Source of the DNA: Serripes groenlandicus
Lineage: Eukaryota; Mollusca; Bivalvia; Cardiida; Cardiidae
Length of the DNA: 64,000 nucleotides
Reading direction: 5' to 3'
Assembly: GCA_031761405.1 (NCBI GenBank)
Contig: JASEVX010000001.1
Location: forward strand, 41,096,699 to 41,160,698
The position numbers were made by a program, and so were the translations under genes. Numbering within the stretch: the stretch's first letter is position 1; each line of letters opens with the position of its first letter. The notes under the pieces are model-generated. The model worked only from the letters and a program-made list of their open reading frames with translations. It made no database searches and was not told where the DNA came from. Positions 2,081 to 63,359 of the stretch are shown here, piece after piece.

Positions 2081-5000
2081 CAACGTAACGAGCGCGTGCA
2101 TGACCTTATGCATTATATAGATTGTTGTATAGATCTAGATCAACGTAATGAGCGTTTGCTTCACCTTTCGAATTGTATATATCTAGTTCAGTGTAATGAG
2201 CGTTTGTTTTACCTTTCGAATTGTATATATCTAGATCAACGTAATGAGCGTTTGCTTGACCTTTCGAATTGTATATATCTAGATCAACGTAATGAGCGTT
2301 TGCTTCACCTTTCGAATTATATATCTAGATCAACGTAATAAGCGTTTGCTTCACCTTTTGAATTGTATATATCTAGATAAACGTAATAAGCGTTTGTTTG
2401 ACCTTTCGAATTATATATCTAGATCAACTTAATGAGCGTTTGCTTCACCTTTCGGATTATATATCTAGATCAACGTAATGAGCGTTTGCTTCACCTTTCG
2501 AATTATATATCTAGATCAACGTAATGACATTTGTTTTACCTTTCGAATTATATATATCTAGTTCAGTGTAATGAGCGTTTGCTTGACCTTTCGAATTGTA
2601 TAAATCTAGATCAACGTAATAAACGTTTGCTTGACCTTTCGAATTGTATATATCTAGATAAACGTAATGAGCGTTTGTTTTACCTTTCGAATTATATATC
2701 TAGATCAACGTAATAAGCGTTTGCTTGACCTTACGAATTGTATATATCTAGTTAAGTGTAATGAGCGTTTGCTTGACCTTTCGAATTGTATAGATCTAGA
2801 TCAATGTAATGAGCGTTTGCTTGACCTTTCGAATTGTATATATCTAGTTCAGTGTAATGAGCGTTTGCTTGACCTTTCGAATTGTATATATCTAGATCAA
2901 CATAATGAGCGTTTGCTTCACCTTTCGAATTGTATATATCTAGATCAACGTAATAAGCGTTTGCTTCACCTTTCGAACTGTATATATCTAGATCAACGTA
3001 ATGAGCGTTTGTTTTACCTTTCGAATTGTATATATCTAGATCAACTTAATGAGCGTTTGCTTCACCTTTCGAATTGTATAGATCTAGATGAACGTAATGA
3101 GCGTTTGTTTTACCTTTCGAATTGTATATATCTAGATCAACGTAATGACAGTTTGCTTCACCTTTCGAATTGTATATATCTAGATCAACGTAATGAGCGT
3201 TTGCTTGACCTTTCGAATTATATATCTAGATCAACGTAATAAGCGTTTGCTTCACCTTTCGAATTGTATATTACTAAATCAACGAAATAAGCGTTTACTT
3301 GACCTTTCGAATTGTATAGATCTTGATCAACGTAATGAGCGTTTGCTTCACCTTTCGAATTGTATAGATCTAGATCAACGTAATAAGCGTTTGCTTCACC
3401 TTTCGAATTGAATATATCTATTTCAGTTTAATGAGCGGTTGTTTTACCTTTCGAATTGTATATATATATCTAGATCAACGTAATGAGAGTTTGCTTGACC
3501 TTTCGAATTGTATATATCTAGATCAACGTAATGAGCGTTTGTTTTACCTTTCGAATTATATATCTAGATCAACGTAATGACATTTGTTTTACCTTTCGAA
3601 TTATATATATCTAGTTCAGTGTAATGAGCGTTTGCTTGACCTTTCGAATTGTATAAATCTAGATCAACGTAATAAACGTTTGCTTGACCTTTCGAATTGT
3701 ATATATCTAGATAAACGTAATGAGCGTTTGTTTTACCTTTCGAATTATATATCTAGATCAACGTAATAAGCGTTTGCTTGACCTTACGAATTGTATATAT
3801 CTAGTTAAGTGTAATGAGCGTTTGCTTGACCTTTCGAATTGTATAGATCTAGATCAATGTAATGAGCGTTTGCTTGACCTTTCGAATTGTATATATCTAG
3901 TTCAGTGTAATGAGCGTTTGCTTGACCTTTCGAATTGTATATATCTAGATCAACGTAATAAGCGTTTGCTTCACCTTTCGAATTGTATATATCTAGATAA
4001 ACGTAATGAGCGTTTGTTTTACCTTTCGAATTATATATATCTAGATCAACTTAATGAGCGTTTGCTTCACCTTTCGAATTGTATAGATCTAGATGAACGT
4101 AATGAGCGTTTGTTTTACCTTTCGAATTGTATATATCTAGATCAACGTAATGACAGTTTGCTTCACCTTTCGAATTATATATATCTAGATCAACGTAATG
4201 AGCGTTTGCTTGACCTTTCGAATTATATATCTAGATCAACGTAATAAGCGTTTGTTTGACCTTTCGAATTGTATATATCTAGATCAACGTAATGAGCGTT
4301 TGCTTCACCTTTCGAATTGTATATATCTAGATCAACGTAATGAGCGTTTGCTTCACCTTTCGAATTGTATATATCTAGATCAACGTAATGAGCGTTTGCT
4401 TGACCTTTCGAATTGTATATATCTAGTTCAGTGTAATGAGCGTTTGCTTGACCTTTCGAATTGTATATATCTAGATCAACGTAATGAGCGTTTGCTTCAC
4501 CTTTCGAATTGTATATATCTAGATCAACGTAATAAGCGTTTGCTTCACCTTTCGAATTGTATATATCTAGTTCAGTGTAATGAGCGTTTGTTTTACCTTT
4601 CGAATTGTATATATCTAGATCAACGTAATGAGCGTTTGCTTGGCCTTTCTTATTGTATATTACTAAATCAACGAAATAAGCGTTTACTTGACCTTTCGAA
4701 TTGTATAGATCTTGATCAACGTAATGAGCGTTTGCTTCACCTTTCGAATTGTATAGATCTAGATCAACGTAATAAGCGTTTGCTTCACCTTTCGAATTGA
4801 ATATATCTATTTCAGTTTAATGAGCGGTTGTTTTACCTTTCGAATTGTATATATATATATCTAGATCAACGTAATGAGCGTTTGCTTGACCTTTCGAATT
4901 GTATATATCTAGATCAACGTAATAAGCGTTTGTTTTACCTTTCGAATTGTATATAACTAGATCAACGAAATAAGCGTTTGCTTGACCTTTTGAATTGTAT

Positions 5001-5170
5001 AGATCTTGATCAACGTAATGAGCGTTTGCTGCACCTTTCAAATTGTATAGATCTAGATCAACATAATGAGCGTTTGCTTCACCTTTCGAATTGTATAGAT
5101 CTAGATCAACGTAATGAGCGTTTGCTTGACCTTTCGAATTGTATATATCTATTTCAGTGTAATGAGAGTT
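2080..5170. repeat. 48 bp satellite, subfamily 2
   Basis: Same 48 bp period as the preceding array, but the typical unit is CTAGATCAACGTAATGAGCG plus TTTGCTTGACCTTTCGAATT plus GTATATAT. It aligns without gaps to subfamily 1, sharing TCAACG-AATGAGCGTTTGCTTGA, and differs mainly in the second half. About 64 units are present. Some units lose two bases in the TATATAT run, which changes the frame and breaks the 16-residue repeat frames. Blocks of about 1 kb are duplicated within the array (see the separate entry). The frames (for example 2667-3239 and 4198-4800) are by-products of the period. Confidence 0.95.
2527..4244. repeat. 1053 bp higher-order duplication inside the 48 bp satellite
   Basis: The segment beginning near 2527 recurs near 3580. 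The 183 bp stretches 2531-2713 and 3584-3766 translate identically, and the following units match up to about 3239 and 4244, except that 48 bp is lost in the second copy. A second, shorter duplication places about 3265-3480 at about 4654-4870. These are signs of unequal exchange within the array. Confidence 0.85.
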
Positions 5171-5530
5171 TACTTGATGGTTCTAATTGTTTAGATGAAG
5201 ATCAACGTACTAAGCATTTCTTTGATGATACGAACTGTATAGATCCAGATCAACGCAATAATAGTTTGCTTAATGGTATTTATTGTATAGATCCAGATCT
5301 ACTAAACGAGAGGTTGCTTGCCAATACCAGTTATATAGATTTATATCAACGTAATAAGTGGTCGCTTAATGATACGTATTGTATATATCCAGATCAGCGT
5401 AACGAGTGTTTTTCTTGATGATTATTATTGTACAGAACCAGATCACCCTTATGATCGTTTGCTTGACTATACATTGAATACATCCAGATTAACAAAATAA
5501 GTATTTGCTTGATGGTACTTATTGCATAAA
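5170..5530. repeat. Degenerate edge of the 48 bp satellite
   Basis: Seven or so diverged units at the right border of the array still show the 48 bp spacing (GATCAACG, GATCCAGATCAACGCAATAA, GATCAGCGTAACGAG). Sequence identity falls steadily toward the right. Greater divergence at an array border than in the interior is the usual pattern for satellites homogenised by unequal crossing-over. Confidence 0.85.
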
Positions 5531-6005: not shown

Positions 6006-6385
6006 TAAAAGCAATACCATTATAAATAAAAACACAAATAACAATTTGCAATGACGTCAGTCGTTGTCATTGAAAACGAGAATAAACACGGCAATTCTTT
6101 GTACACGCACATATATGTTCGACAATTCGTTTACAGACAAATTACCGATATCACCGGGGATTAATTGATTTACAAGACACTTCATTATTGTCAGATTATC
6201 TTGGAAATATTACTCCGCGATTCCTCGTAAATTGAATAGATGATGATACTTATTTTCTCCTTTCCTGTTCGCTTTACACGCAGACTGTCAACATGTACCC
6301 GTCGAGTATATGAATAAATGCATACACATATGAATAAGCTTATGTTAGTAATATACAAGACGAATTTTGATGCAAAGCATCAAAG
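6006..6385. other. Gene-free spacer
   Basis: AT-rich unique-looking sequence. I see no repeat, RNA or coding signal. The direct repeat GATGCAAAGCATC near 6370 is a short palindrome at the edge of the next element. Confidence 0.4.
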
Positions 6386-7397
6386 ACGCCGCGCATGATT
6401 TTGAAGCATGACTTAAAGGAAGCAGATGCAGTTCAGTACATTGAAATAACATGTGCAAACAGACAGGATGTAAATATTTCGGTCAAGTAGGCCAAATATC
6501 CCTTTATTTTAAACAAGAATGCCAATATATGCCTATATGCCTGGCTAGCATAGCCTATACTAAAAGTATATCAAGAGCAGAAAGGGTCAATTTTGACGTA
6601 GGGATTAGTCGTTTTATATGCTACGATCTATGTGATATTCAGCATGAGAAGTTTAGTCGTGAAATGAAAAGTTTAGCCCTGAAACCATTTGGTTTACAGT
6701 TTGCTTAACATTGACTACAACTATAATGTGTCATACAAGCTGAAGTTTCTTATTTTTTTTACCAATAAACGGTTTTAAATCTGTTCTAACCAGATCAATT
6801 AGATAAAATAAAAACATAAGTGCTTAGATATTAACATATATTTAGGTTTAATGCCTCTAGTTATAAGTGTGACACAAGCTTTGGAAGGAGAGGGGGAAGT
6901 CTATTCTACTTCTAGTTTAGCAGAAGTATGATAATAAAAACGGGAGTATTTATGATCAAAATTGAGCATTTATGAAATTAAAAGAAAAAGTTGACATGTA
7001 TAGTCAACATATGGCAAGAATACAATGGTCTGAATGAACAAACTGTATGGGGATGAACGTTTTAAGAAATACAACATAATTTTATAAATAGGCAAAAACA
7101 CACCCCTATTTTTTGAGCCGTAAACCAAACAATTAAAAAAGCGTAGGCTAGGTAGTTGGGGAAAAAGTGAACTATTGTTACTATTTTTCTGAGCTTTAAT
7201 GAACCGTGTCGTCAGGGCCGTAAATCAAACCGTTAAAAAAGGATTAGCCTAGGAAGTTGGGGAAAAGTTATTAAATACAAATTAAATGTGTCTAAAGATT
7301 TGTGATAATGTTGGTTGCTCCCTTTTCGATTACGTCACCCCATGGTACAACATTAAAACCTATTCAATATTGACGCCTCGCTTCCACGCGGCGTCAA
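6386..7397 (+). mobile_element. 1 kb dispersed repeat (family G), plus-strand copy
   Basis: The segment from about 6386 to 7362 reappears in inverse orientation at 14094-15199. Shared landmarks include GCATGATTTTGAAGCATGAC, CATTTGGTTTACAGTTTGCT, AGCTTTGGAAGGAGAGGGGG and CTCCCTTTTCGATTACGTCA. The ends carry GACGCCGCG (6386) and CGCGGCGTC (7389-7397), which look like short inverted termini. Inside, a stretch of about 110 bp containing CCTAGGAAGTTGGGGAAAAG and its relative is duplicated (about 7100-7170 and 7210-7270). A frame at 6451-6708 is not conserved in the partner copy, so I call it non-coding. Class unknown: possibly a non-autonomous DNA element or a LINE 3' part. Confidence 0.7.
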
Positions 7398-10224: not shown

Positions 10225-10488
10225 TGAGCCGTCGCGCGAGAAAACCAACACTGTGGACTCTGCGTAAAGTATCGACCCGGATCAGCATAAGCATGCCGCG
10301 CAGGCTTACCCGGATAGATACTTTTCGCCTCCTGTAGATTATCTGTTTCAGGATTCATTACACTATACCTCTATCCCCCCTGAGATGGAATGTGCCTACC
10401 TGAATCAGCCTGCGCAGACTGCGCAGGTTGATCTGGGTCGATACATTACGCAGAGGACATAATGTTGGTTTTCTAGTGGAACGGCTCA
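10225..10488. mobile_element. MITE C, complete copy
   Basis: Non-autonomous DNA element with inverted ends TGAGCCGTCGCGCGAGAAAA and TTTTCTAGTGGAACGGCTCA. The interior is characteristic: GCGTAAAGTATCGACCCGGA, TTTTCGCCTCCTGTAGATTA, then inverted counterparts GGTCGATACATTACGCAGAG. The ends and subterminal parts are complementary, so the whole element can fold on itself. Related copies lie at 12441, 19666, 29570, 31674, 36705, 41889, 43002 and 48209. Small frames containing FLFQES recur in every copy and reflect the repeat, not a gene. Confidence 0.85.
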
Positions 10489-11420
10489 TATCATCTGCGT
10501 AATGTATCGACCAGATCAGCCTGCGCTGTCCGCGCAGACTGATCCGGCCGACACATTCCGTCTTAGGGGGAAAGATGTATAGAGTAGTGATTCCTGAAAC
10601 AGAAAATCCACAGGAGGCGAAAAGTGTCTATCCGGGTTAGTCTGCGCGGCATGCTTTAGGCTGATCTGGGTCGATACATTACGCAGAGGCCATAATGTTG
10701 GTTTTCTAGTGGAACGGCTCATATCATCTGCGTAATGTATCGACCAGATCAGCCTGCGCTGTCCGCGCAGACTGATCCGGCCGACACATTCCGTCTTAGG
10801 GGGAAAGATGTATAGAGTAGTGATTCCTGAAACAGAAAATCCACAGGAGGCGAAAAGTGTCTATCCGGGTTAGTCTGCGCGGCATGCTTTAGGCTGATCT
10901 GGGTCGATACATTACGCAGAGGCCATAATGTTGGTTTTCTAGTGGAACGGCTCATATCATCTGCGTAATGTATCGACCAGATCAGCCTGCGCTGTCCGCG
11001 CAGACTGATCCGGCCGACACATTCCGTCTTAGGGGGAAAGATGTATAGAGTAGTGATTCCTGAAACAGAAAATCCACAGGAGGCGAAAAGTGTCTATCCG
11101 GGTTAGTCTGCGCGGCATGCTTTAGGCTGATCTAGGTCGATACTTTACGCAGTGGCCATAAGGTTGGTTTTCTAGTGGAACGGCTCATATCATCTGCGTA
11201 ATGTATCGACCAGATCAGCCTGCGCTGTCCGCGCAGACTGATCCGGCCGACACATTCCGTCTTAGGGGGAAAGATGTATAGAGTAGTGATTCCTGAAACA
11301 GAAAATCCACAGGAGGCGAAAAGTGTCTATCCGGGTTAGTCTGCGCGGCATGCTTTAGGTTGATCCGGGTCGATACTTTACGCAGAGGCCATAAGGTTGG
11401 TTTTCTCGCGAAACGGCTCA
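10481..11420. repeat. 233 bp tandem array derived from MITE C
   Basis: Four near-identical units begin at 10481, 10714, 10947 and 11180. Each runs from ACGGCTCATATCATCTGCGT to TTGGTTTTCTAGTGGA. Each unit is a MITE C in inverse orientation to 10225-10488, and adjacent units share a single terminus (ACGGCTCAT). The last unit has diverged (TTTTCTCGCGAAACGGCTCA). The array adjoins the complete MITE C copy, so it probably arose by tandem duplication after insertion. Confidence 0.92.
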
Positions 11421-12410
11421 TATTTACTAACTTGTTTCCTTGTTGCACATTAATTAAAATACATGACCTCGGATTGAGGCCGACCTTTAGCTTGTTTGGG
11501 TCGGACAAGCTGTCAGCCAATCAAATCTAACGTTACAGATAACGTGTGTCGTTATGTCAAAACGTCGAATGAAGCACTGGGTTTTCGGCTTCAAACACAA
11601 GCATGTTATATCATGAATACACCACGTCTCTAATGATGACTTATTTAAGTTGGATGAAACCTATATCAGGAGCACTCTACGTTGAATTACATTCAGGGTA
11701 TATTGAACATCCCGTGAAATGTCAAACTCATTGTTTAAACACACTTTTGAAATACAAATGTATCTAACCAAATATCTTGATTCAAAATATATACTTCTCT
11801 AGCGAAATTTAGGTTATGTTCTAATAATATAGATAGACAACCACGCACATGTACACAGTACATATGGTGTAATATGTAAGTGTAATATGGGTATGATATA
11901 AGATCTTTACCATTTTCTACTTGTTTGTACCAAGTATAGAGAACTAAGACATACATTTCTTAAATCATACTATTGTAGATGGCCTTCTATACAAATATGT
12001 AATACATTTATGTCATCAAATTCAATAACAACAATTAACAGGTTAGCTATATTTATTTATCTGGCTTTTAAGGAAAGAGATGAACTGTAAAAGATACTGT
12101 ATTATAGATATATATGTATTCATGTCAATTCCACTTTGTATTGGTTTGTATGGCTATAAATATTGTTAATGTTTAATGCCAATAAACATTATGTTATGTT
12201 ATGTTATATTATGTTTATATCAACTGACCATGCGACAATAACCTTTCGTCTGTTTACCCAGAAGCTCTCACGGGAAGAATTCTGCCGGTTTTGATTAGTC
12301 TGTACATATCCATCTGTGCGATAGCGTAATATAAAAAGAGATAACCGATTTACATTCTTACTAGTCTTCCGAACCATTTGTCGTGGTATCCAGTGAGTAA
12401 TATGGTTAAT
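11421..12410. other. Gene-free spacer with (TTATG)n
   Basis: No coding signal. At 12170-12215, AATAAACATTATGTTATGTT runs into a short (TTATG)n microsatellite. That resembles the 3' end of a decayed retroelement, but I cannot assign it. Minus frames at 11735-11956 and 12204-12437 show no motif. Confidence 0.4.
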
Positions 12411-12752
12411 CATGGGGCGTAGCTTGGCAATAATCAATGTGTAGGCCGTCTCGTGAGAAAATCAACAGTGTGGACTCTGCGTAAAGTATCGACCCGGATC
12501 AGCCTAAGCATGCCACACAGGCGTACCCGGATATACATTTTTCGCCTCCTGTGAATTTTCTGTTTCAGGAATCACTACTATATATATCCCCCTTTAGACA
12601 GAATGGGTCGGCCGGATCAGTCTGCGCGGACAGCGCAGGCTGATTTGGTCGATACATTACGCAGATGTGTATCGCTGCAGCTGCATTTTTAGCATTTTTA
12701 GAAAAAATATGTAGGCACGTGCCTACAGTGCCTTAAGGGAGCTACGCCCCTG
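12411..12752. mobile_element. Composite hAT-like element carrying MITE C, copy 1
   Basis: The ends are CATGGGGCGTAGCTTGG and GGAGCTACGCCCCTG, inverted with respect to each other. They are flanked by the direct repeat TTAAT (12406-12410 and 12753-12757), a 5 bp target duplication. A truncated MITE C occupies about 12441-12662. The right-hand unique part reads CGCTGCAGCTGCATTTTTAG and GTAGGCACGTGCCTAC. A second copy with the same internal MITE C is at 29537-29840. A CAGGGGCG-type terminus with a 5 bp duplication fits a hAT subgroup; this assignment is inference. Confidence 0.8.
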
Positions 12753-14093: not shown

Positions 14094-15199
14094 TTGAATA
14101 GGTTTAAATATTGTACCATGGGGTCACGTAATCGAAAAGGGAGCAACCAACAATGTTATTGTGAAGAAAAACTCTGTAATATGTTTGAAAATAACAACCT
14201 TTATTAATCAATACATTGTATTAACTGATTTAAGAAACAACAAGATGCAAAATACGTATGTCTTCTACCGTTAGTACAACAAATATTAAGACACATTTAA
14301 TTTGTATTTAATAACCTTTCCCCAACTTCCTAGGTTACGCTTGTTTTAATAGTTTGGTTTACGATTCATCAAAGCTTAGAAAACAAATTCACTTTTCCCC
14401 AACTTCCTAGGCTACGCTTTTTTAATTGTTTGGTTTACGGCCCCGATTCATCAAAGCTCCGAAAGCAAACTCGGGGGATGTTTTTGCCCTTTATAAGATT
14501 ATGTTGTCTAACCATCTTCCCCATATAGTTTGTTCATTCTTGCTATGTGTTGATTATACATGTGAACTTTCATAATGCTGAAATTTGATCATAAATATCT
14601 TTTTTAAATTACTTCGTATTTTTTTGTTTATATACTCCCATTTGTATTATCATACTTCTGCTAAACTGGAAGGAGAATAGACTCCCCCCTCTCCTTCCAA
14701 AGCTTGTGTTACACTTTACTTATAACTGAAGGCATTAAACCTTAATATATGTTAATATTTAAGCACCTACGTTTGTTTTATCTAATTGATCTAGTTAGAG
14801 CAGATTTAAAACCGTTTATTGGTAAAATGATTTAAGAAACTTCAGCTTGTATGACACATTATAGTTGCAGTCAATGTTAAGCAAACTGTAAACCAAATGG
14901 TTTAAGGACTAAACTTGTCATTTCACAACTAAACTTCACATGCTGAATATCACATAGATCGTAGCATATAAAACGTCTAATCCCTTTGTCAAAATTGACT
15001 CTTTCTGCTCTTGGTAACCTTTTAGTATAGACTGTGGTAGGTGAGCAATATAGGCATATCTTGGCCTTCTTGTTTAAAATAAATTGACATTTGGCCTTTT
15101 GTTCGAAATATTTACATCCTGTCTGTTTGCACAGGTTATTTAAATGTACTGAACTGCATCTGCTTCCTTTAAGTCATGCTTAAAAATCATGCGCGGCGT
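14094..15199 (-). mobile_element. 1 kb dispersed repeat (family G), minus-strand copy
   Basis: Inverse copy of 6386-7362. In order it shows ACCATGGGGTCACGTAATCG, CCCCAACTTCCTAGGCTACG, CTCTCCTTCCAAAGCTTGTG, GCTTGTATGACACATTATAG and AAATCATGCGCGGCGTC. It has small insertions and deletions relative to the partner and lacks the partner's outer CGCGGCGTC end. The pair could form a very large hairpin across a 6.7 kb spacer. Confidence 0.7.
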
Positions 15200-15394
15200 C
15201 TTGTGTTTCATAATGATTACATTTATGTTTAATATGCTCTGTTAATGTTTATCATATTTGCTTATAAAAAAATGACCGACAAGGGAAGAAATAATTGAAG
15301 TAAACTATGTGTCCTTCTCTGATAATAAACACATGTTTACATGTTTCAAAACCTCTGAAACCCAGTGGTCGAGTGACTCGATTGGTCGTATATG

Positions 15395-19665: not shown

Positions 19666-19928
19666 TGAGCCGTTCCGCGAGAAAACCAACAGTATGGCAT
19701 CTGCGTAATGTATCGACCCAGATCAGCCTTCGCAGTCCGCGCAGACTGATCCGGTCCGACACATTCCGTCTAAGGGGGATACAGGTATAGAGTAATGAAT
19801 CCTGAAACGGAAAATCCACAGGAGGCGAAAAGTGTGTATCCGGGTAAGTCTGTTCGGCATGCCTAAGCTGATCCGGGTCGATACTTTACGCAGAGTCCAT
19901 AATGTTGCTTTTCTCGCAGAACGGCTCA
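19666..19928. mobile_element. MITE C
   Basis: The termini TGAGCCGTTCCGCGAGAAAA and CTCGCAGAACGGCTCA are inverted. Its orientation matches the 10481-11420 array. The interior GACACATTCCGTCTAAGGGG and CCACAGGAGGCGAAAAGTG is intact. Confidence 0.85.
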
Positions 19929-20515: not shown

Positions 20516-20564
20516 AAAAACATTCCTTACATAGTGGTTGATTGTGTGCATAAGTCCAGTCTAG

Positions 20565-20777
20565 TTAACTCTTTCAGCGCCGAATTGTTTGAAGTAGACT
20601 CTTCGAGGTTCAACATCGGGCGTCTCCATTTCTCATGTAATACAATTTTGGACTATTTTGATAACTAAAAGGCAAACAATACTGATTTCAGGTGAGACAG
20701 CTCGTTACGAGCTGACTCGGCTGAATCAGTATTGTTTGCTAAAACCTGAATATTGCCTTTGGCGCTGAAAGAGTTAA
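20565..20777 (-). mobile_element. MITE A, complete, inverted
   Basis: Begins TTAACTCTTTCAGCGCC and ends GGCGCTGAAAGAGTTAA, so the termini are inverted and bordered by TTAA. A long internal hairpin sits around AGACAGCTCGTTACGAGCTG. A TTAA duplication is what piggyBac-type elements leave; assigning the superfamily on this alone is inference. Confidence 0.88.
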
Positions 20778-20845
20778 GTTATCTACGGACCGCAATATAG
20801 TCAACGGAGTTCCTATACGGATCAACTATAGAAAATGATTGATAA

Positions 20846-21040: not shown

Positions 21041-21219
21041 AGCGTAAACTAGGCTACATTTTGCTTGCGAAGCTTAGTCTTTCTATAATTGCAAAAAAGA
21101 GAATCGTCAGGGAGCCGCTGCATGAAGAAATTCTCACTAAATTAAATTCTTCGCTGTTCGATAATGTGGGATGTAAATCTACCTGCATATTCTAGTCTGT
21201 AAGGTGCAGCGTCATACAC

Positions 21220-21449
21220 TTAACCCTTTCCCTCATACGACAATTCTGCAGCAGACGACTTTTAACATATTTTGTGAACAAATAGAAAATCTCTATAATT
21301 AAATGGATAACCTATGACTAAAAGTGGAAAACATTGTGGCAAAAGGAGAAATTGCTCGTTTTGAGCAATTTCTTCTTTTGTCACTATGTTTTCGAAAAGC
21401 CGTCTGCTGCAGAGGCGTCAGAAAGCGTCTATATGAGGGAAAGGGTTAA
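21220..21449. mobile_element. MITE B, complete copy
   Basis: Perfect inverted ends TTAACCCTTTCCCTCATA and TATGAGGGAAAGGGTTAA are bordered by TTAA. Subterminal CTGCAGCAGACGACTTTT is mirrored by AAAGCCGTCTGCTGCAG. In the centre GAAATTGCTCGTTTTGAGCAATTTC forms a hairpin. It has no coding capacity. The TTAA borders suggest piggyBac-type mobilisation (inference). Confidence 0.9.
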
Positions 21450-29536: not shown

Positions 29537-29840
29537 CAGGGGCGTAGCTTGGCAATAATCAATGTATAGGCCGTCTCGTGAGAAAAATCAACGTTGTAGA
29601 CTCTGCGTAAAGTATCGACCCGGATCAGCCTAAGCATGCCACACAGGCGTACCCGGATATACACTTTTCGCCTCCTGTGGATTTTCTGTTTCAGGAATCA
29701 CTACTCTATCTATACCCCCTTAGACGGAATGTGCCGGCCGGCATTACGCAGATGTGTATCGCCGCAGCTGCATTTTGGGGCATTTTTAAAAAAAATGTGT
29801 AGGCACGCGCCTACAGTACCTAAAGGGAGCTACGTCCCTG
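29537..29840. mobile_element. Composite hAT-like element carrying MITE C, copy 2
   Basis: The ends CAGGGGCGTAGCTTGGC and GGGAGCTACGTCCCTG are inverted and flanked by a perfect 5 bp duplication, ATTGT (29532-29536 and 29841-29845). A truncated MITE C lies at about 29570-29755 in the same place and orientation as in copy 1 (12411-12752). So the MITE was captured before the composite spread. The frame 29636-29854 is a by-product. Confidence 0.88.
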
Positions 29841-31673: not shown

Positions 31674-31934
31674 TGATCCGTTCCATGAGATAACCAACAG
31701 TATGGGCTCTGCGTAAAGTATCGACTCGGATCAGCCTAAGCATGCCGCGCAGGCTAACCCGGGCAAACACTTTTCGCCTCCTGTGGATTTCGGTTTCAGG
31801 AATCATTACTCTATACCTCTATCCACCTGAGACGGAAAGTGTCGGCCCGTATAAGCCTGCTCAGCGGCGCAGGTTGATCTGGGTCGATACATTACGCAGT
31901 GTCCTTAATGATGGTTTACTGGTGGAACAGCTCA
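31674..31934. mobile_element. MITE C
   Basis: The left end TGATCCGTTCCATGAGATAA and right end TACTGGTGGAACAGCTCA are inverted. The interior CTCCTGTGGATTTCGGTTTC is typical. It sits next to a MITE F fragment (about 31560-31625). The frame 31742-31939 is a by-product. Confidence 0.8.
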
Positions 31935-36704: not shown

Positions 36705-36939
36705 TGAGTCATCCCACAAGAAAATCAACATTGTGGACTCTGCGTAAAGCATCGACCCGGATCAGCCTAAGCATACCGTGCAGGCTAACTCGAGTAGACA
36801 CTGTTCGCCTCCTGTGGATTTTCTATTGCAAGTATCATTACTTTATACCTCTATCCCTTAGAGACGGAATATGTCGGTCCGGATTAGTCTGATCGGGTTC
36901 GATACATCCACAATGTTGGTTTTCTCGTGGGACGGCTCA
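36705..36939. mobile_element. MITE C
   Basis: TGAGTCATCCCACAAGAAAA on the left and TTTTCTCGTGGGACGGCTCA on the right. The right-hand subterminal palindrome is shortened compared with other copies. Confidence 0.82.
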
Positions 36940-39149: not shown

Positions 39150-40680
39150 ATGATCTTCACTTCAAAGTACTTCAAAGAAGACCTTGTTACAGGTAGATAT
39201 ACTGACTACAAGCTTGACATCATGAGATACAATGGTCCAAAGAAACCAGATATGCCACCTGTCAAGAACCAAGTTCCACCACTTAGTGTTCTCGCTCATA
39301 TGGTTGTTTCGCGACAGAGAGCTAATGAGTGTGACCTCAGGTTCTTGACAGATGTTGTGCAGCGTGATAACTGTCCTGAATTCAACGCATTTGTGTCGCG
39401 ATCAAGGAGAAGCCACACAACCCAAAACTAAAGCAGTGTATCTACCATTGATTGATATGCCACCAGCACATCCAGACACAATTATGACAGCCATGAGCAA
39501 ATCACAGCAGTTAACAGAGAAAACTGGTCAAGGTTTCACTGTCTTGGCATCACTCTAAAACCAGAAACTCTCAAGACCTGGGCCCTTAGCTTGCACATAT
39601 GTAGCAGACTTGTGAAAGACGTTTCAACTCTGAGAGACAAGTCGGCTAGTTCTAAAACAGCGCACAAAGAAGAGGCTCCAGCAAGGATATCTGCAGACCA
39701 AGGTAACAGAGACGGGTTGCGCAGAAAACTGGATGTGAGCATCGATCCAATGGACCCAGAGAAGAACCCAGCGAACATTGCCAATGTGGTCAATGACGGA
39801 TCGCTCCTGAATCAGTGAATGTTGACAGAGCAGTTGAAATTGGTGCTCAGCAAATGGGTGAGTTTGAACGGAAATTGCCTGGAGGTTTCTACGACACAAT
39901 TTCGAAGAAAGTTCAAACCATGGCTGTCATGAAGAAATCAATTGACGTAGGCGATTCCAAGGTATACGATACCAAGTTAATATACTCTCGCGTGATAGGT
40001 CTACAAGCAAGTTCCAGAGATGTTGACTTTCATGATGTAATGTCATGCGAGCTGTCGCCAGTTCCTACAGCTCTGTTTGATGAGTCTGGAGATATGCGTA
40101 TCTCGAAGTCCAAGGCCGCTTTGAAGAACCAGACAAAGGTTGAAGTATCAGCTAGACACGCGACACTTGAAGAAACATGCACAGTGATCGATGGCTGTGC
40201 TCTCCTTTGGATTCCTACTTGGCCTTCATCATCACCAACACGACAACCAACAGTGATGGACTTTGTATCAAACTTCAAAGGCAAGATTGAAGAGACACTA
40301 ACATCTGGTGATGTGTACTTAGTCTTTGACAGGTACAATGATTACATCACCAAGTGTGCAACCAGGATATCGAGAGGCAATGATGGTTGCAGAGTTTTCC
40401 AACTGAGTCCAACTTCACCCCTTCCGTCTCAGAAACTGACTCTGACAGTCACAGAGAACAAGAAACAGTTGATTAACATCATTTGTCAACATCTGCAAAG
40501 CGATGCAGGTTTCATCATAAAACACAAGCCTGTGATCACCAGCCAAGATGACACTCCTGTTGAACTAGGTCCAGGTGGTGTTCCGATCCAACGGCACGAT
40601 ATGGCCACATCTCAAGAGGAGGCTGATGTGATTATTGTGCAACAGGCTATCATGCTTGCAGATGAAGGAAGATCCGTCAG
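39150..40680 (+). pseudogene. Broken copy of an uncharacterised multi-copy invertebrate protein family
   Basis: Four collinear pieces in shifting frames. 39150 to about 39400 has YNGPKKPDMPPVKNQVPP and later DNCPEFNAFVSR. About 39400-39530 has PKTKAVYLPLIDMPP and DTIMTAMSKSQ. About 39531-39797 has GITLKPETLKTWALSLHICS and IDPMDPEKNP. About 39800-40680 has LIYSRVIGLQASSRDVDFHD, VYLVFDRYNDYITKCATR, TENKKQLINIICQHL and TSQEEADVIIVQQA. I recognise this set as a family repeated many times in mollusc, cnidarian and other genomes; its function is unknown to me. VFDRY followed by a basic stretch and the acidic EEAD motif faintly recall PIN/FEN-like nucleases. Relative to the family as I remember it, a central part of perhaps 250 residues is missing at about 39530, and the C-terminal part with a DTDV motif is absent. 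The apparent start of the 309-residue frame (GTG at 39815) is not a real start. Probably a dead mobile-element-associated copy. Confidence 0.75.
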
Positions 40681-40744
40681 AAAGTGCAGTTATTACCAAT
40701 GTTATCCAATAATTATGATTATAATATTCCAAGACAACTTTTAA

Positions 40745-41888: not shown

Positions 41889-42095
41889 TGAGCCGCCCCG
41901 CGAGAAAACCAACAGTGCAGGCTTACCCGGATAGACACTTTTCGCCTCCTGTGGATTTTCTGTTTCAGGAATCATTACGTTATACCTCTATCCCTCTGAG
42001 ACGGAATGTGTCGGCCCGGATCAGTCTGCGCGGACTGCGCAGGCTGATCCGGTCGATACATTACGCAGAGGCCATCCAGTTGGTTTTCTCGCTCA
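41889..42095. mobile_element. MITE C with internal deletion
   Basis: TGAGCCGCCCCGCGAGAAAA on the left and TTGGTTTTCTCGCTCA on the right. The GCGTAAAGTATCGACCCGGA segment is deleted, and the right terminus has lost GGAACGG. The frame 41840-42100 is a by-product. Confidence 0.82.
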
Positions 42096-43001: not shown

Positions 43002-43264
43002 TGAGTCGTTCAACGAGAAAACAAACAATGTGGACTCTGCGTAAAGTAATGACCCGGATCAGCCTAAGCATGTCGCGCAGGCTAACCCAGACAGAAACGT
43101 TTCACCTCCTGTGGATTTTCTGTTCCAGGAATCATTACTCTATACCTATATCCCCCTGAGACGGAGTGTGTCGGCCCAGATTAGCCTGCGCAGACTGCGC
43201 AGGTTGATCGGGGTCGATACATTACGCAAAGTCCATAATGTTGGTTTTCTCGTGGAACGGCTCA
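43002..43264. mobile_element. MITE C, complete
   Basis: TGAGTCGTTCAACGAGAAAA on the left and TTTTCTCGTGGAACGGCTCA on the right. The interior is full length. The frame 43111-43377 starts in it and is not a gene. Confidence 0.87.
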
Positions 43265-46643: not shown

Positions 46644-47160
46644 GTCTTTTATCAACAAGTGCTGATGAACAATATAGCAGAAGTGTAGAGAAACCAACAC
46701 ATGAACGACTCCTGGAGACATTGCTGGTAAATTGTTTCTACATACGTCAATGGGAGCTATTGAAAGTAAGAGAACGTATTTGAGTCTGCAAGTGTTCCTG
46801 GAATCATCTCCAATTACAGGCGTATGTTGAGTACATTCACCAACAGAGGAAAAGGGAGTATGAAGTCATTTTGTATTAACGTTATTGACTCTTCCCACTA
46901 CACCACTCTATTAGATTATGTCAATATACTTTCACAACACACGGAAATAGAACTTATGAACCAGATCAGTACTATACGGTTGAGGTCAGTGTAGGTTTGG
47001 TTGTTTCAACGGCAATTTACATAGAGATACAAATCAATTTTTTTCAGAAATAAATTTCCTCAACGAAATCTCACTGTCGAGGATGCATGTATAATTGTTA
47101 ATGTTGCCTACGGAATACCGTTAGGGCCATCGCCTATGAATGTGTTGATCTTTAAACGCG
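46644..47160. other. Gene-free spacer
   Basis: No recognised repeat or gene. Confidence 0.4.
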
Positions 47161-47165
47161 ATACT

Positions 47166-47850
47166 CGACAGTACGATTATGATAACACGACAGTACGATG
47201 ATGATAACGCGACAGTACGATACTACGATATTACGATGGTGAAAACGCGACAGTACGATGGTGAACATACGATGATGATAATGCGATATACTATCGTGTT
47301 TTCACCATCGTACTGTCGCGTTTTTACCATCGTAATATCGTAGTATCGTACTGTCGCGTTATCATCATCGTACTGTCGCGTTATCATCATCGCATTGTCG
47401 TGTTATCATCATCGTACAGTCGCGTTATCACCATCGTACCGTCGTGTTATCATCATCGTACTGTCGTGTTATCACCATCGTACCGTCGCGTTATCACAAT
47501 CGTACCGTCGTGTTATCATCATCGTACTGTCGCGTTATCACCGTCGTACCGTCGCGTTATCATCATCGTACTGTCGCGTTATCACCATCGTACCGTCGCG
47601 TTATCACCAACGTACCGTCGAGTTATCACCATCGTACCGTCGCGTTATCACCAACGTACCGTCGTGTTATCACCATCGTACCGTCGTGTTATCACCATCG
47701 TACCGTCGTGTTATCATCATCGTACCGTCGCGTTATCATCATCGTACCGTCGCGTTATCATCATCGTACCGTCGCGTTATCACCATCGTACCGTCGCGTT
47801 ATCAACATCGTACCGTCGTGTTATCATCATCGCACTGTCGTACTATCGCC
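47166..47850. repeat. 22 bp satellite headed by a large inverted repeat
   Basis: From about 47290 to 47850 the unit CGTTATCACCATCGTACCGT plus CG repeats about 25 times, with CAC/CAT and CGCG/CGTG variants. From 47166 to 47287 the same units lie in the opposite direction (CGACAGTACGATGATGATAA). The junction near 47290 is thus the centre of an inverted repeat with arms of about 110 bp. The arms share rare words such as CGTAATATCGTAGTATCGTA. The three overlapping plus-strand frames (47395-47946) exist because the unit lacks stops in any frame; they are not genes. Confidence 0.95.
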
Positions 47851-54224: not shown

Positions 54225-57035
54225 ATGTCATTACTTTTAAGAACGTATTGAGACACAATGCTGATTATACCATTTGCAGGAATCCATTACTTTTAAGAAC
54301 GTATTGAAACACAATGCTGATTATACCATTTGCAGTAATCCATTACTTTTAAGAACGTATTGAGACACAATGCTGATTATACCATTTGCAGGAATCCATT
54401 ACTTTTAAGAACGTATTGAGACACAATGCTGATTATACCATTTGCAGGAATCCATTACTTTTAAGAACGTATTGAAACACAATGCTGATTATACCATTTG
54501 CAGTAATCCATTACTTTTAAGAACGTATTGAGACACAATGCTGATGATACCATTTGCAGGAATCCATTACTTTTAAGAACGTATTGAGACACAATGCTGA
54601 TTATACCATTTGCAGGAATCCATAACATCTAAGAATGTATTGAGACACAATGCTGATTATACCATTTGCAGGAATCCATTACTTTTAAGAACGTATTGAG
54701 ACACAATGCTGATTATACCATTTGCAGGAATCCATTACTTTTAAGAACGTATTGAGACACAATGTTGATGATACCATTTGCAGGAATCAATTACTTTTAA
54801 GAAATTATTGAGACACAATGCTGATTATACCATTTGCAGGAATCCATTACTTTTAAGAACGTATTGAGACACAATGCTGATGATACCATTTGCAGGAATC
54901 CATTACTATTAAGAACGTATTGAGACACAATGTTGATGATACCATTTGCAGGAATCCATTACTTTTAAGAATGTATTGAGACACAATGTTGATGATACCA
55001 TTTGCAGGAATCCATTACTTTTAAGAACGTATTGTGACACAATGTTGATTATACCATTTGCAGGAATCCATTACTTTTAAGAACGTATTGAGACACTATG
55101 CTGATGATACCATTTGCAGGAATCCATTACTTTTAATAACGTATAGAGACAATATGTTGATTATACCATTTGCAGTAATCCATTACTTTTAAGAACGTAT
55201 TGAGACACAATGCCGATGATACCATTTGCAGGAATCCATTACTTTTAAGAACGTTTTGAGACACAATGCTGATTATACCATTTGCAGGAATCCATTACTT
55301 TTAAGAACGTATTGAGACACAATGTTGATGATACCATTTGCAGGAATCCATTACTTTTAAGAACGTATTGAGACAAAATGTTGATTATACCATTTGCAGG
55401 AATCCATTACTTTTAAGAACGTATTGAGACACAATGCTGATGATACCATTTGCAGGAATCCATTACTTTTAAGAACGTATTGAGACACAATGTTGATGAT
55501 ACCATTTGCAGGAATCCATTACTTTTAAGAACGTATTGAGACACAATGTTGATGATACCATTTGCAGGAATCCATTACTTTTAAGAACGTATTGTGACAC
55601 AATGTTGATTATACCATTTGCAGGAATCCATTACTTTTAAGAACGTATTGTGACACAATGTTGATTATACCATTTGCAGGAATCCATTACTTTTAAGAAC
55701 GTATTGAGACACAATGCTGATGATACCATTTGCAGGAATCCATTACTTTTAATAACGTATAGAGACAATATGCTGATTATACCATTTGCAGTAATCCATT
55801 ACTTTTAAGAACGTATTGAGACACAATGCCGATGATACCATTTGCAGGAATCCATTACTTTTAAGAACGTTTTGAGACACAATGCTGATTATACCATTTG
55901 CAGGAATCCATTACTTTTAAGAACGTATTGAGACACAATGTTGATGATACCATTTGCAGGAATCCATTACTTTTAAGAATGTATTGAGACACAATGTTGA
56001 TTATACCATTTGCAGGAATCCATTACTTTTAAGAACGTATTGAGACACAATGCTGATGATACCATTTGCAGGAATCCATTACTTTTAAGAACGTATTGAG
56101 ACACAATGTTGATGATACCATTTGCAGGAATCCATTACTTTTAAGAACGTATTGAGACACAATGTTGATGATACCATTTGCAGGAATCCATTACTTTTAA
56201 GAACGTATTGTGACACAATGTTGATTATACCATTTGCAGGAATCCATTACTTTTAAGAACGTATTGAGACACAATGCTGATGATACCATTTGCAGGAATC
56301 CATTACTTTTAATAACGTATAGAGACAATATGCTGATTATACCATTTGCAGTAATCCATTACTTTTAAGAACGTATTGAGACACAATGCCGATGATACCA
56401 TTTGCAGGAATCCATTACTTTTAAGAACGTTTTGAGACACAATGCTGATTATACCATTTGCAGGAATCCATTACTTTTAAGAACGTATTGAGACACAATG
56501 TTGATGATACCATTTGCAGGAATCCATTACTTTTAAGAACGTATTGAGACACAATGTTGATTATACCATTTGCAGGAATCCATTACTTTTAAGAACGTAT
56601 TGAGACACAATGTTGATTATACCATTTGCAGGAATCCATTACTTTTAAGAACGTATTGAGACACAATGTTGATGATACCATTTGCAGGAATCCATTACAT
56701 TTAAGAACGTTTTGAGACACAATGCTGATAATACCATTTGCAGGAATCCATTACTTTTAAGAACGTATTGAGACACAATGCTGATGATACTATTTGCAGG
56801 AATCCATTACTTTTAAGAACGTTTTGAGACACAATGTTGATTATACCATTTGCAGGAATCTATTACTTTTAAGAACGTATTGAGACACAATGCTGATAAT
56901 ACCATTTGCAGGAATCCATTACTTTTAAGAACGTTTTGAGACACAATGTTGATTATACCATTTGCAGGAATCTATTACTTTTAAGAACGTATTGAGACAC
57001 AATGCTGATGATACTATTTGCAGGAATCCAGCGAG
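54225..57035. repeat. 56 bp satellite, about 50 units, with higher-order repeats
   Basis: The unit is GAACGTATTGAGACACAATG, CTGATTATACCATTTGCAGG and AATCCATTACTTTTAA. Successive GAACGTATTG words are 56 bases apart. The marker variant ATAACGTATAGAGACAATAT occurs near 55136, 55752 and 56312. These are 616 and 560 bp apart, exactly 11 and 10 units, and the neighbouring variants repeat with it. No long open frame runs through it. Border units are slightly more diverged. Confidence 0.97.
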
Positions 57036-57957
57036 ATAAGGGATATGGTATTACTATCTCCAAGTCGGCTAACCACTTAAATTCATCTTTTGTTGAGATA
57101 ACAGTAGAGCGTTCGAATATGCTGATAATATAAAGGCCAACCTGTTAAACTCATTCTAATCGTTTCTAAGAATGTATCGATCGACCAACACAAGTCTGTG
57201 GCTAGCGAAACAAATGTTTTATCAGAAGATTTATGGAAATAAAAGAAAGGAACTGCATGAAAAGCACAGCTCATTTCCTTGGCACAATTATTCGCCCCAA
57301 GATTCCAATTATATACCTTCACAATAAAAACGGAAAACGCCATAACCGAGAGATAGAAAACAGTTCGTAGATGCCAAGCAAAAAAGACCCTTGACTGTGA
57401 CGGCTAGAGTCACGTATTTAATAGTCATTCAAAACTGTGGTCCATACAGATCTGCTCAAGCTATCCCGTAAGTTTTAATAAATGACAACTTTGATAGTTT
57501 TGTATCCGAGTTTCAAGTACATGTACATAATATTGTTACAAAATGTGTCTTCTACAATATAACCTGTACGGAAAAATAGGCTCACATGTCTCAAAGTGTG
57601 TGTATTAGTTGGGTATCAGAGAAGCTTTGATTGCTCGCTAAAACGTCAACTAGGTCCGGTTAATTATATTTTTGGCTATTTTAACCATCCGACGCTATAT
57701 CTCAAATATTCAAATTAAAATAAAAATCATCGAATATTATGTTGATCAATATCTGTCTATTCAGAGATCTATATATGTATTATTTTGTTTGTAAACAATA
57801 TTACAAAGAGGGTTGATCTATATTCTGTCATGTATATATGTCATTTTGTTTCGCTGTTTGTAATGCTAAATTGTATTTTTCTCATGTTTGTGTCCATGTA
57901 CAAACTGGGAGTATTAAAGAAATTGAAATTGAATTGAGGTTAAGAATTTCCTGAAGT
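57036..57957. other. Spacer with possible LINE 3' end
   Basis: Around 57900-57935, GGGAGTATTAAAGAAATTGA followed by AATTGAATTGA resembles the 3' terminus of LINE-type elements. No coding part precedes it. The minus frame 57083-57343 has no recognised domain. Confidence 0.35.
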
Positions 57958-58224
57958 ATAGCATTGTTGAACCGTAAATTTCACACAAACGAATATGTCA
58001 CACGTGTGACATATTCGTACGAATTCATCACACGTGTGTGACAAATTCGTACGAATATGTCACAATTAGGTGTTGTGACATACTCGTACCACCTTTTTTC
58101 ACCACCTGTTAGTACCAACGAAATTTTCACATTTTGTTCATCACTCGTTTATTAATTTTAGCTACCAGTCGCCGTATTTTTGAGTGAATATCAGTTCGCA
58201 AGTTAAGTGTGTGAAGTTGGCAGA

Positions 58225-58825
58225 GCATTAGACGTTAGACATTAGACATTAAAAAAAAAAAATCTAATGTCTAATTAGACATTAGACATTCTGTTAGACA
58301 TTCGCAAATGTTGATACTCGAATGTCTAATTAGACATTCGATTAGAAATTCAGAAAAAAATCACAAATTTTAAATATCGAATGTCTAATTAGACATTAGA
58401 CATTTGCAAATTACAAGATCTATAACTCAAATTCATTGTAAGTTATTGTACAGTCAAACAACGAATGTTTAATTGGTCAGTTAGACATTAGACATTCGAT
58501 TAGACATTTGCAAATTACGGGATTTAGGTACCAAATTCGTCGGAGGTTATTGTACATGCAAAAAACGAATGTCTAATTGGTCATTTAGACATATTCGATT
58601 AGACATTCGCAAATTACCAAACTTAGGTTCCAAATTCGTCAGGAGGTTAATGTACATTAAAAAACGAATGTCTAATTGGTCAGTTACACATTAGACATTC
58701 AATTAGACATTCGCAAATGAAGAGATGTAGGTACCAAATTCGTCGGAGGTCATTGTACATGCAAAAAAACGAATGTCTAATTGGTCAGCTAGACATTAGA
58801 CATTCGATTAGACATTCGCCAATTA
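58225..58825. repeat. ACATTAG-type palindromic repeats inside the fold-back element
   Basis: The perfect palindrome AATGTCTAATTAGACATT occurs near 58265, 58323 and 58380. Then come three units of about 100-105 bp carrying ACCAAATTCGTCGGAGGT, ACGAATGTCTAATTGGTCAG and TAGACATTCGATTAGACATT. A 12-base A run separates two inverted halves near 58255. Confidence 0.88.
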
Positions 58826-58834
58826 AGACACTTA

Positions 58835-59880
58835 GATACCTCAAACATATCGATAACTTGAATATACCGATAACTCGAACATATCGATATCTCGAACATA
58901 CCGATAACTCGAACACATCGATATCTAGAATACATTGATAAAACAAATACATTTAACTTGAACATATTGATAACTCGAACATATTGATATCTCGAATATA
59001 CAGATAGCTCGAACATATCGATATCTCGAATACATTGATCTAACACATACATCTTATTCGAACATATTAATAACTCGAACATATCGATATCTAGAAAATA
59101 TCGATATCTCGAACATACCAATAACTCGAACAAATCGATATCTCTAACATATTAATAACATGAATGCATATATAACTCGAACATATTGATAACTCGAACA
59201 TATCGATATATCGAACATATCGATATCTCGAACATACCGATAGCTCGAACATATCGATATCTCGAATGATAAAACAAATGTATTTAATTTGAACATATTG
59301 ATAACTCGAACATAGCGATATCTGGAGCATATCGATATCCCGAACATACCGATAGCTCGAACAAATCTATATCTCATTAATAAAATGAATGCATAGTTAA
59401 CTCAAATATATTGATAACTCGAACATACCGATATCTCGAACATACCAATAACTCGAACACATCGATATATCGAATTCATTGATAAAACGAATGTATTTAA
59501 CTTGAACATATTGATATCTCTCAATATATTCGAATTAACGATGCATTCATTTTATTAATAAAATATAGATTTGTTCGAGCTATCGGTATGTTCCAGATAT
59601 CGATATGTTCCAGATATCGATATGTTCGAGTTATCAATATGTTCAAATTAAAAGCATTCGTTTTATCAATGTATTCGATATATCGATTTGTTCGAGTTAT
59701 CAATATATTCGAGTTACAGATGCATTCATGTAATTAATATGTTAGATATATCGATTTGTTCGAGCTATCGATATGTTCGAGATATCTATATGTTCTAGAT
59801 ATCGATATATTCGAGTTATCAATATGTTCGAATTAGATATATGTGTTAGATCAATATGTTCGAGATATGTATATGAAGTA
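58835..59880. repeat. Inverted satellite of TCGAACATATCGATAT units
   Basis: From 58835 to about 59515, units of about 18 bp (CTCGAACATATCGATAT, CTCGAACATACCGATA) run in one direction. From about 59530 to 59880 they run in the other (GTTCGAGATATCGATATG). The right arm is an inverse of about 59031-59424, sharing irregular words such as AATAAAATGAATGCAT and GATAAAAC-AATG. So about 350 bp can fold back around a centre near 59475. The frames at 58789-59377 (minus) and 59521-59703 come from this repeat. Confidence 0.9.
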
Positions 59881-59929
59881 TCAGTGTCGAATGGTTATCA
59901 AAATATTGAGTGCTAAAGAATTTGACATT

Positions 59930-60190
59930 TTTACCCCTTGTGACCTTGACCTTTGGTCCAATGACCCAAAATTGTACCTGGGTCATTTACTCAATATGTT
60001 CTAGCATCCTGTAAAATATGAGGGCTATATCAATATGACCCCTGATCTATCTAAGTGGCATAGACTGTTTTTTGGAATGTGTGACGTATTCGTATGAACA
60101 ATATTTTTAAAAATGTTTTTTGTTTTTTTGGACATGTGACGTATACGTTTTTGCTTTGAGGGGAGGTAGAGGTACACAACTGAATTTTCA
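59930..60190. other. Unique part of the fold-back element
   Basis: Contains GTGACCTTGACCTTTGGTCC and ATGACCCAAAATTGTACCTG, then T-rich sequence up to the right TIR. Phrases of this kind occur in other molluscan repeats as far as I recall. No coding frame is present. Confidence 0.5.
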
Positions 60191-60303
60191 CAAATGTGTG
60201 ACATATTCGTACGAATTTGTCACACACGTGTGATGAATTCGTACGAATATGTCACACGTGTGACATATTCGTATGTGTGAAAATTACGGTTCAACATAGC
60301 ATC

Positions 60304-60974
60304 ATATGTTTCAGCCAATCACAAAGCTTGGGTTGAGAGGCCTAATAAAGTGGACTACGTGCACTATTTCCATACGGGACAGTACTAACCTTAGAGTAAT
60401 TTATACACGTGCTGGGAAAACTGCCTGTGTCAATTTCATAATATTCTTTTCCTGTACAATATGATCTGCCTCCATGCGGGAAAATCAACCCTTTGAAACT
60501 TTCTATTATTTACGCAGTTTGACGTTTCTGTAGAAAACATTTTAAAGAACAGATATATATCTGCATTACATATAGTGCTTATTCACTTAGCCTTGAGAAT
60601 AATGTAATCAAATACTTCAATAACAGGGGTTTGTGGAAACGTTTTGGTTCCTTTAACAATTACTAGAATTGTACATTTTAGTCACGAAATCGGGATATCC
60701 GAGAGTAAATACATCTTTAGAATCAGACAGCATAAATCCCGATGCTTTGATTGATTTTAGTAACACTTATCCTGCCATACTCAATTTCCAGTTGTGTTAG
60801 TATCATGCTATACACGAATTAAAATACCAGTTGGTATTAAAGTAGATAAAGACCAGTCTGAACGATGTCTACCCGATTGTCCCACATTTTGAAAATGCTA
60901 TTTACCCTTACCCGCGGTGTGGTGAAGTTGGGTAAGTGAAGGATGAGAATACCGGTTATTTTGTCTATTCCAAG
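60304..60974. other. Gene-free spacer
   Basis: Nothing recognised. Confidence 0.4.
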
Positions 60975-62797: not shown

Positions 62798-62935
62798 GAT
62801 TTCTGATATATAGACGTGCATAAAAAATGCATTATTAAACTTATTAGATTCAGATTTATTAGTTGTGCATAGCCATGCTGTATAACACAGACTATGTTTT
62901 GCAGACAGAAGACTGTTTCAAATGATTCTACCTAC

Positions 62936-63244
62936 CTTATTCCGGTCACTGGTCTGATGACTGATTCCAAAAAGGTTTTCCAGTCCCTCCATTGCCACGT
63001 TTGGCAACGAACAGCCTCGTTTATAGAAGATGACTTGTTTACCACCTCCTCAAGCTGTTCTATGGAGTCACAATCAGTTCGCCTGTAGAGCTTCTTCAAT
63101 GAGGCAAAACCACTGTCCACCAAACAACGAGCGTGACCTGGGACCTGCATCATATATTCAATGCTCTCGTGCCTGCTTGTCATCACGCGCCAAGACAAGT
63201 AGCCCATCACATACTTGTGAATGTTTTCAAACATAATAGAATAC
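62936..63244 (-). CDS. Probable exon of a transposase-like or mobile-element-associated protein
   Basis: A minus-strand frame of about 103 residues. Key segments are YVMGYLSWRVMTSRHESIEY, QVPGHARCLVDSGFASLKKL, YRRTDCDSIEQLEEVVNKSS and WQWRDWKTFLESVIRPVTGI. I recognise the order (YL-WR, HESI-Y, PGH-R-LVD-GF, K-YRR, VVN-S, WQWR-W) from a multi-copy family in bivalves and cnidarians that appears linked to mobile elements; no function is established that I know of. The family continues past the end seen here. AAG followed by GTAGGT at 62936/62935 is a good splice donor, and TCTAG at 63245-63249 a possible acceptor, so this may be one exon of an interrupted gene. The coding frame is intact throughout. 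Confidence 0.55.
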
Positions 63245-63359
63245 CTAGACTGACACAATTATCCATAGCAGTAATTTTTAACACATTTATGTCCACATTT
63301 TATAACAAGCTACTATTTACTAAAACATATATTTCAAACGACTACGTGGTCGATTTGTA

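Follow-up and report, generated by a model that had tools for sequence, protein, structure and literature searches.

A foldback-like non-autonomous transposon candidate with a mirrored satellite interior in the bivalve Serripes groenlandicus

Element boundaries and target-site duplication

Within a 64-kb stretch (64,000 nucleotides) of contig JASEVX010000001.1 of Serripes groenlandicus, hereafter called the window, we confirmed a well-bounded foldback-like non-autonomous element whose satellite is mirrored with unusual regularity; it adds one example to a kind that is already described. The segment is probably a non-autonomous DNA transposon of the cut-and-paste type. It measures 2,332 bp and is bounded by two terminal inverted repeats (TIRs) of 100 bp each (Table 1). 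The TIRs are identical at 98 of 100 positions, both mismatches fall within the outer 24 bp, and the likeness breaks off beyond 100 bp. The sequence-only reading was confirmed: it had described inverted ends of 99 bp with two mismatches from 57966 to 60295, and the ends found here are 100 bp with two mismatches, from 57965 to 60296.

The direct repeat at the outer ends, taken as the target-site duplication (TSD), can be read in several ways. A boundary scan within a few bases gave an exact 6-bp TAGCAT, with element ends TGTTGAACCGTA, and the alternative is an 8-bp repeat with one mismatch (ATAGCATT/ATAGCATC), with element ends GTTGAACCGTAA. An exact 7-bp ATAGCAT is also present, in which case the element ends are offset by one base. 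In 200,000 draws of two random positions separated by some 2.3 kb in the window, the chance was 0.00075 for an exact 6-bp repeat and 0.0012 for an 8-bp repeat with at most one mismatch, uncorrected for the choice between readings. We prefer the 6-bp reading because it is free of mismatches and the TIR gains one base, although one copy cannot decide between the two. Under this cleanest boundary, the element ends are TGTTGAACC..GGTTCAACA. The 8-bp duplication with one change that had been proposed earlier thus exists as an alternative, but the exact TAGCAT is cleaner.

Table 1. Features of the element and its flanks (positions in the window)
Feature	Position	Strand	Remarks
Left TSD, TAGCAT	57959..57964	.	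By the 6-bp reading; 57958-57965 by the 8-bp reading
Left TIR, 100 bp, begins TGTTGAACCGTAA	57965..58064	+	98/100 against the right end
Perfect 30-bp palindrome ACGAATATGTCACACGTGTGACATATTCGT	57989..58018	.	Within the left TIR
Six half-sites GTGTGACATATTCGT, 0-3 mismatches	57989..58087	.	Order -,+,-,+,-,+; sixth site, at 58073, located inward of the TIR
Left subterminal non-repeat segment, 166 bp	58065..58230	.	No match elsewhere in the window, E up to 1
Palindrome-rich block	58231..58832	+	Perfect palindromes of 24, 24 and 18 bp, of ATTAGACATT type; 104-bp tandem repeat
Satellite, forward part, 17-bp units	58833..59520	+	Spacers A 58936, B 59036, C 59152, A 59267, C' 59377, A 59480
Left arm of satellite fold-back	59014..59414	+	Spacers B-C-A-C'
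Right arm of satellite fold-back	59521..59875	-	Mirrored C'-A-C-B; pairs with the left arm in folding
Right subterminal segment, 321 bp	59876..60196	.	Extra half-sites at 60079 and 60134
Right TIR	60197..60296	-	Perfect 32-bp palindrome at 60242-60273; five half-sites
Right TSD, TAGCAT	60297..60302	.	Direct repeat of the left TSD

Palindromes and half-sites in the TIRs

Each TIR is built of 15-bp half-sites that face in alternate directions, with a period of 32 bp, and contains a perfect palindrome, 30 bp long in the left TIR and 32 bp long in the right. When GTGTGACATATTCGT was searched for with up to three mismatches, 13 of the 14 half-sites in the window lay in the element, against a mean of 3.19 and a maximum of eight in shuffled windows; the pattern was derived from the TIR, however, and 10 of the 13 sites restate it and are not independent of it. 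The independent sites are the three located inward of the TIRs, at 58073, 60079, and 60134, and the sole site outside the element was weak, with three mismatches. Perfect palindromes of at least 14 bp numbered seven in 57940-60320 versus six in the rest of the window. Long TIRs with internal repeats, a structural feature of the foldback-like class, are therefore present. For Galileo, additional transposase binding sites have been reported within the repeats of its TIRs (PMC4079207), and by likeness to Galileo we infer that the half-sites may act as transposase binding sites in this element.

Interior structure and the mirrored satellite

Between the TIRs lie 2,132 bp, of which repeat blocks account for 1,645 (77%), which makes the earlier description of the interior as almost all inverted or palindromic repeats slightly too strong. 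The 104-bp tandem repeat extends over 58395-58840 in 4.3 copies. In the satellite, the 17-bp units are interrupted by odd spacers and their orientations are not a random mixture: the spacer order B-C-A-C' (59036, 59152, 59267, and 59377) is mirrored exactly on the other strand (59844, 59720, 59656, and 59541). The two arms are separated by a loop of 106 bp and differ by a net 46 bp in length, and two ungapped stretches of the left arm are identical to the right arm at 136 of 148 positions (59267-59414) and 172 of 191 positions (59014-59204). Folded as single-stranded DNA, 59014-59875 gave -299.1 kcal/mol, whereas shuffled sequences averaged -92.75 kcal/mol (sd 5.21, n = 20); the satellite thus folds back on itself, as the sequence-only reading had claimed. 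A single inverted duplication of a block of approximately 400 bp, with subsequent drift and minor changes in length, would explain the mirrored satellite.

The TIRs differ at 2 of 100 sites and the satellite arms at 31 of 339 (Fisher p 0.016, with sites treated as independent and only the ungapped stretches counted), and this lower divergence of the TIRs is consistent with constraint on, or conversion of, the ends. No repeat of either subterminal segment (58065-58230 and 59876-60196) was found elsewhere in the window above chance level, the latter having a single weak match (73% over 37 bp, E 0.15).

Coding and RNA content

None of the nine stop-to-stop ORFs of at least 60 aa inside the element (0 of 9) matched a Pfam family above the curated cut-off, and no transposase remnant was detected among them by Pfam. 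A match of the satellite translation to YIF1 (E 0.008) stayed below the cut-off, at 16.1 bits versus the 27.6 needed, and a protein search with the ORF at 60054-60251 on the minus strand yielded no candidate. A middle without coding capacity, which is a structural feature of foldback-like elements, was accordingly observed over these nine ORFs. The anatomy fits a non-autonomous foldback-like transposon: long TIRs, a TSD, and no Pfam domain above the cut-off in the nine ORFs.

No Rfam family reached its gathering score in the window, and no tRNA was found. A relaxed Rfam scan of 57900-60350 returned 25 rows, all below the cut-offs (best E 4.5e-5), of which 24 were microRNA models and one was a bacterial sRNA. 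These sub-threshold rows were put down to hairpins, and a non-coding RNA was rejected.

Other copies of the TIR and the satellite

No second copy of the TIR was found within the window. Exact matches to the 30-bp palindrome or to a 21-bp piece of the TIR were absent from viral contigs and prokaryote genomes, where relatives of an animal element are not expected, and three interior patterns had no match among viral contigs. The case for mobility is thus drawn from the anatomy of one copy, because the searched sequences contained no second TIR copy. With up to two mismatches, the terminal 13 bases also matched at 7111 and 14359, both in the region of an inverted pair described below; the total of four versus 2.82 expected, a number reached in 27 of 100 shuffles, is at chance level.

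The satellite was found again elsewhere. A protein search with its translation (5.8 billion database) gave three candidates, two proteins being at E up to 1. One of these (P0121), from a contig of 726 bp, matched the satellite at E 1.9e-18, and the other (P0122) was a looser match. In P0121, 17 of 19 residues of the spacer-A module and 20 of 23 residues of the neighboring module were identical, and the two modules keep the order that they have in the window; they are 74 residues apart, whereas in the window they are adjacent and overlap by one residue. Because P0121 carries the same modules at a different spacing, the satellite occurs beyond this locus and varies in array length. P0121 shows satellite modules and not the TIRs, and the satellite could therefore be an independent dispersed repeat.

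Other features of the window

Several repeats in the window presumably resemble those of bivalve molluscs. Tandem arrays occupy 54229-57030 (56-bp unit, x50), ending approximately 0.9 kb from the element, and 1-2053 and 2125-5411 (48-bp units, x43 and x69). At 73.8% over 61 bp (E 2.7e-5, in two places), the likeness of the satellite to the 48-bp array was the best found between the element and other parts of the window; it is short and AT-rich, and no kinship is claimed. A second fold-back array at 47158-47849 has a 22-bp unit running one way in 47158-47264 and the opposite way in approximately 47345-47849; it contained no match to the TIR of the element. When inverted flanks were tested on nine other tandem arrays, two of the nine (10425-11423 and 47166-47840) scored above all 30 shuffles, and these high scores apparently stem from the palindromic or inverted arrays themselves.

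A dispersed family of approximately 225 bp is represented at 10228-11417, 12445-12667, 19698-19915, 29570-29741, 31678-31899, 36719-36891, 41918-42069, and 43015-43228. The array at 10425-11423 is built from a related 233-bp unit (4.3 copies, 98% matches) and looks like an interspersed repeat turned tandem array. Two more dispersed short families of approximately 215-228 bp (20562-20780 and 21219-21446, plus copies), each with an inverted core, are represented in the window by five and six copies of nearly full length, and the likeness between some of these is as low as about 70%. An inverted pair of approximately 920 bp (6383-7303 and 14279-15202) encloses about 7 kb, with 786 of 867 ungapped columns identical and 111 gap columns, and no target duplication was seen by eye at its ends. 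An ORF of 315 aa on the plus strand (39797-40741) had 187 homologues at E up to 0.001 and no Pfam match; among the 120 matches listed, the four that were named came from Nucella lapillus (a sea snail; two), a sea urchin, and a Pseudomonadota metagenome bin. It probably belongs to an animal protein family, perhaps one associated with repeats. On the minus strand, 62935-63258 is a fragment matching DUF7869 (PF25273) above the curated cut-off (E 4e-7).

Comparison with known elements

The satellite interior, which had been singled out as unusual, is indeed present, but it has described precedents in Tetris and Galileo of flies and in tandem-repeat MITEs of clams (PMC4079207, PMC4168063, PMC5139131). 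Tetris of Drosophila virilis is described as apparently non-autonomous and foldback-like, with no conserved ORFs and with its parent transposase not found; its internal tandem repeats fed a satellite DNA, and the TSDs were 8-9 bp in three complete copies (PMC4079207). Compared by description and not by sequence, the present element resembles Tetris in being foldback-like and apparently non-autonomous, in its tandem repeats and satellite, and in that no parent transposase was found (PMC4079207). The tandem repeats of Tetris, however, are described as domains of the TIRs (TIR-220), whereas the satellite here lies between 100-bp TIRs as an inverted duplication, and the exact TSD is 6 bp instead of 8-9 bp (PMC4079207). 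Galileo, a foldback-like member of the P superfamily, is similar in its long TIRs, which internal tandem repeats can extend, and in the occurrence of TIR-only copies; it differs in its TSD of 7 or 8 bp with the consensus GTATTAC, and the TIRs of the described copies are much longer (PMC4168063). Of the TSD lengths reported for P/Galileo elements (7-8 bp), 7 bp is exact here with the ends offset by one base, and 8 bp has one mismatch (PMC4168063). The Galileo consensus GTATTAC (or GTANTAC) is not matched by TAGCAT or ATAGCATT/C, a weak comparison of one site with a consensus (PMC4168063).

Among MULE-related elements, the TIRs of the foldback/MULE Tm1 are likewise composite and contain short tandem motifs, but its TSD is 9 bp (8-10) (PMC3169594). 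As described, Spectre has 74-bp TIRs and 8-bp TSDs, and Rehavkus has TIRs of 26-400 bp and a "Minisatellite in Cterm" but differs in its 9-bp TSD (PMC6446971). The reported range of 8-11 bp for MULE TSDs would fit only the 8-bp reading with one mismatch, the exact repeat being 6 bp (PMC6446971), and no MULE transposase was found in the element. For hAT elements, TSDs of 8 bp, or of 5, 6, or 7 bp in some lineages, are reported, and both the 6-bp and the 8-bp readings are possible (PMC12730594). The 6-bp TSD of IS3EU would fit the exact reading and not the 8-bp one. The IS3EU termini TAYGG..CCRTA, described for rust-fungus families, were not matched by the termini here, TGTTG..CAACA (PMC12730594). 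An 8-bp TSD would thus suit hAT or MULE, and a 6-bp TSD would suit a hAT6-type element or another group (PMC12730594, PMC6446971). Banshee, probably a member of IS481EU, is reported to start with TGT, and most prokaryotic IS481 members have 6-bp duplications (PMC10045372). IS481EU was dropped, as reports place it in parabasalids and give its TSDs as approximately 4, 15, or 25 bp (PMC10045372).

When the literature was searched for binding sites that are palindromic and subterminal, no paper matched nearly all of the terms. Helitrons and Helentrons are not known to produce a target duplication or to have long TIRs, and this type does not fit the 100-bp TIRs and the TSD. The tandem-repeat elements described in bivalves (the pearl family, CvA, and DTC84) are alike in being non-autonomous mollusc elements with satellite-like central arrays (PMC5139131, PMC11136912). 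In contrast to the element described here, with its long TIRs and TSD, CvA, CvE, and CvG are cited as Helitron/Helentron examples, and in the oyster examples of the Helitron type the inverted repeats are subterminal and accompany internal arrays (PMC11136912).

Alternative explanations

The TIR is itself palindromic and tandem and could stand alone, and the window has many other short dispersed families whose cores are inverted; the segment might be a satellite locus between two separate, facing insertions of a short palindromic repeat, with the flanking direct repeat a coincidence. We consider this improbable, given that TIR identity ends at 100 bp, that the direct repeat at the outer ends is exact with a chance near 0.001, and that the window holds no further copy of the 100-bp piece. 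Somewhat less unlikely, but still doubtful, is a nested arrangement in which an independent fold-back satellite element (58833-59875) inserted later into an outer TIR transposon. The P0121 contig, with satellite modules and without the outer TIR, points in that direction, although it is only 726 bp long; against it, the sequences within 25 bp of the two ends of the satellite block share no exact direct repeat of 6-10 bp, which says little, as 102 of 200 random pairs likewise lacked a 6-bp repeat.

Palindromes and satellites are readily misassembled, and the element is read from one assembled sequence; a chimeric palindromic read or collapsed repeats could in principle have created the fold-back. 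The arms, however, are 8-10% diverged over the two ungapped stretches and differ by a net 46 bp in length; a chimera formed when a single molecule folds back would not show this. The segment is also bounded by TIRs and a duplication, and its satellite modules recur in another contig, so that an assembly artefact is highly improbable.

Proposed mechanism and implications

On the preferred reading of a single non-autonomous transposon, a transposase supplied from elsewhere would bind the repeated half-sites, cut at TGTTGAACC..GGTTCAACA, and insert the element via a short staggered cut. The interior would be passive cargo that grew within the element: the short palindromes and the 17-bp unit may have expanded in tandem, and an inverted copy of the satellite block of approximately 400 bp may have been made, probably through hairpin-primed or template-switch repair. 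The TIRs would stay more alike than the satellite arms either through being needed by the transposase or through being converted together.

More tentatively, the element may belong to an undescribed TIR family whose ends are arrays of alternately facing half-sites that form perfect palindromes and whose members carry a mirror-duplicated satellite, such that the element both spreads and shapes the 17-bp satellite in its host; we regard this as possible, with the balance of probability against it. As a single copy, the finding chiefly annotates one insertion and draws attention to a satellite that is also found elsewhere. If there is a family, the half-site arrays of its TIRs would allow the idea of repeated transposase binding sites to be tested, and its interior would clearly illustrate how an inverted satellite arises inside a mobile element.
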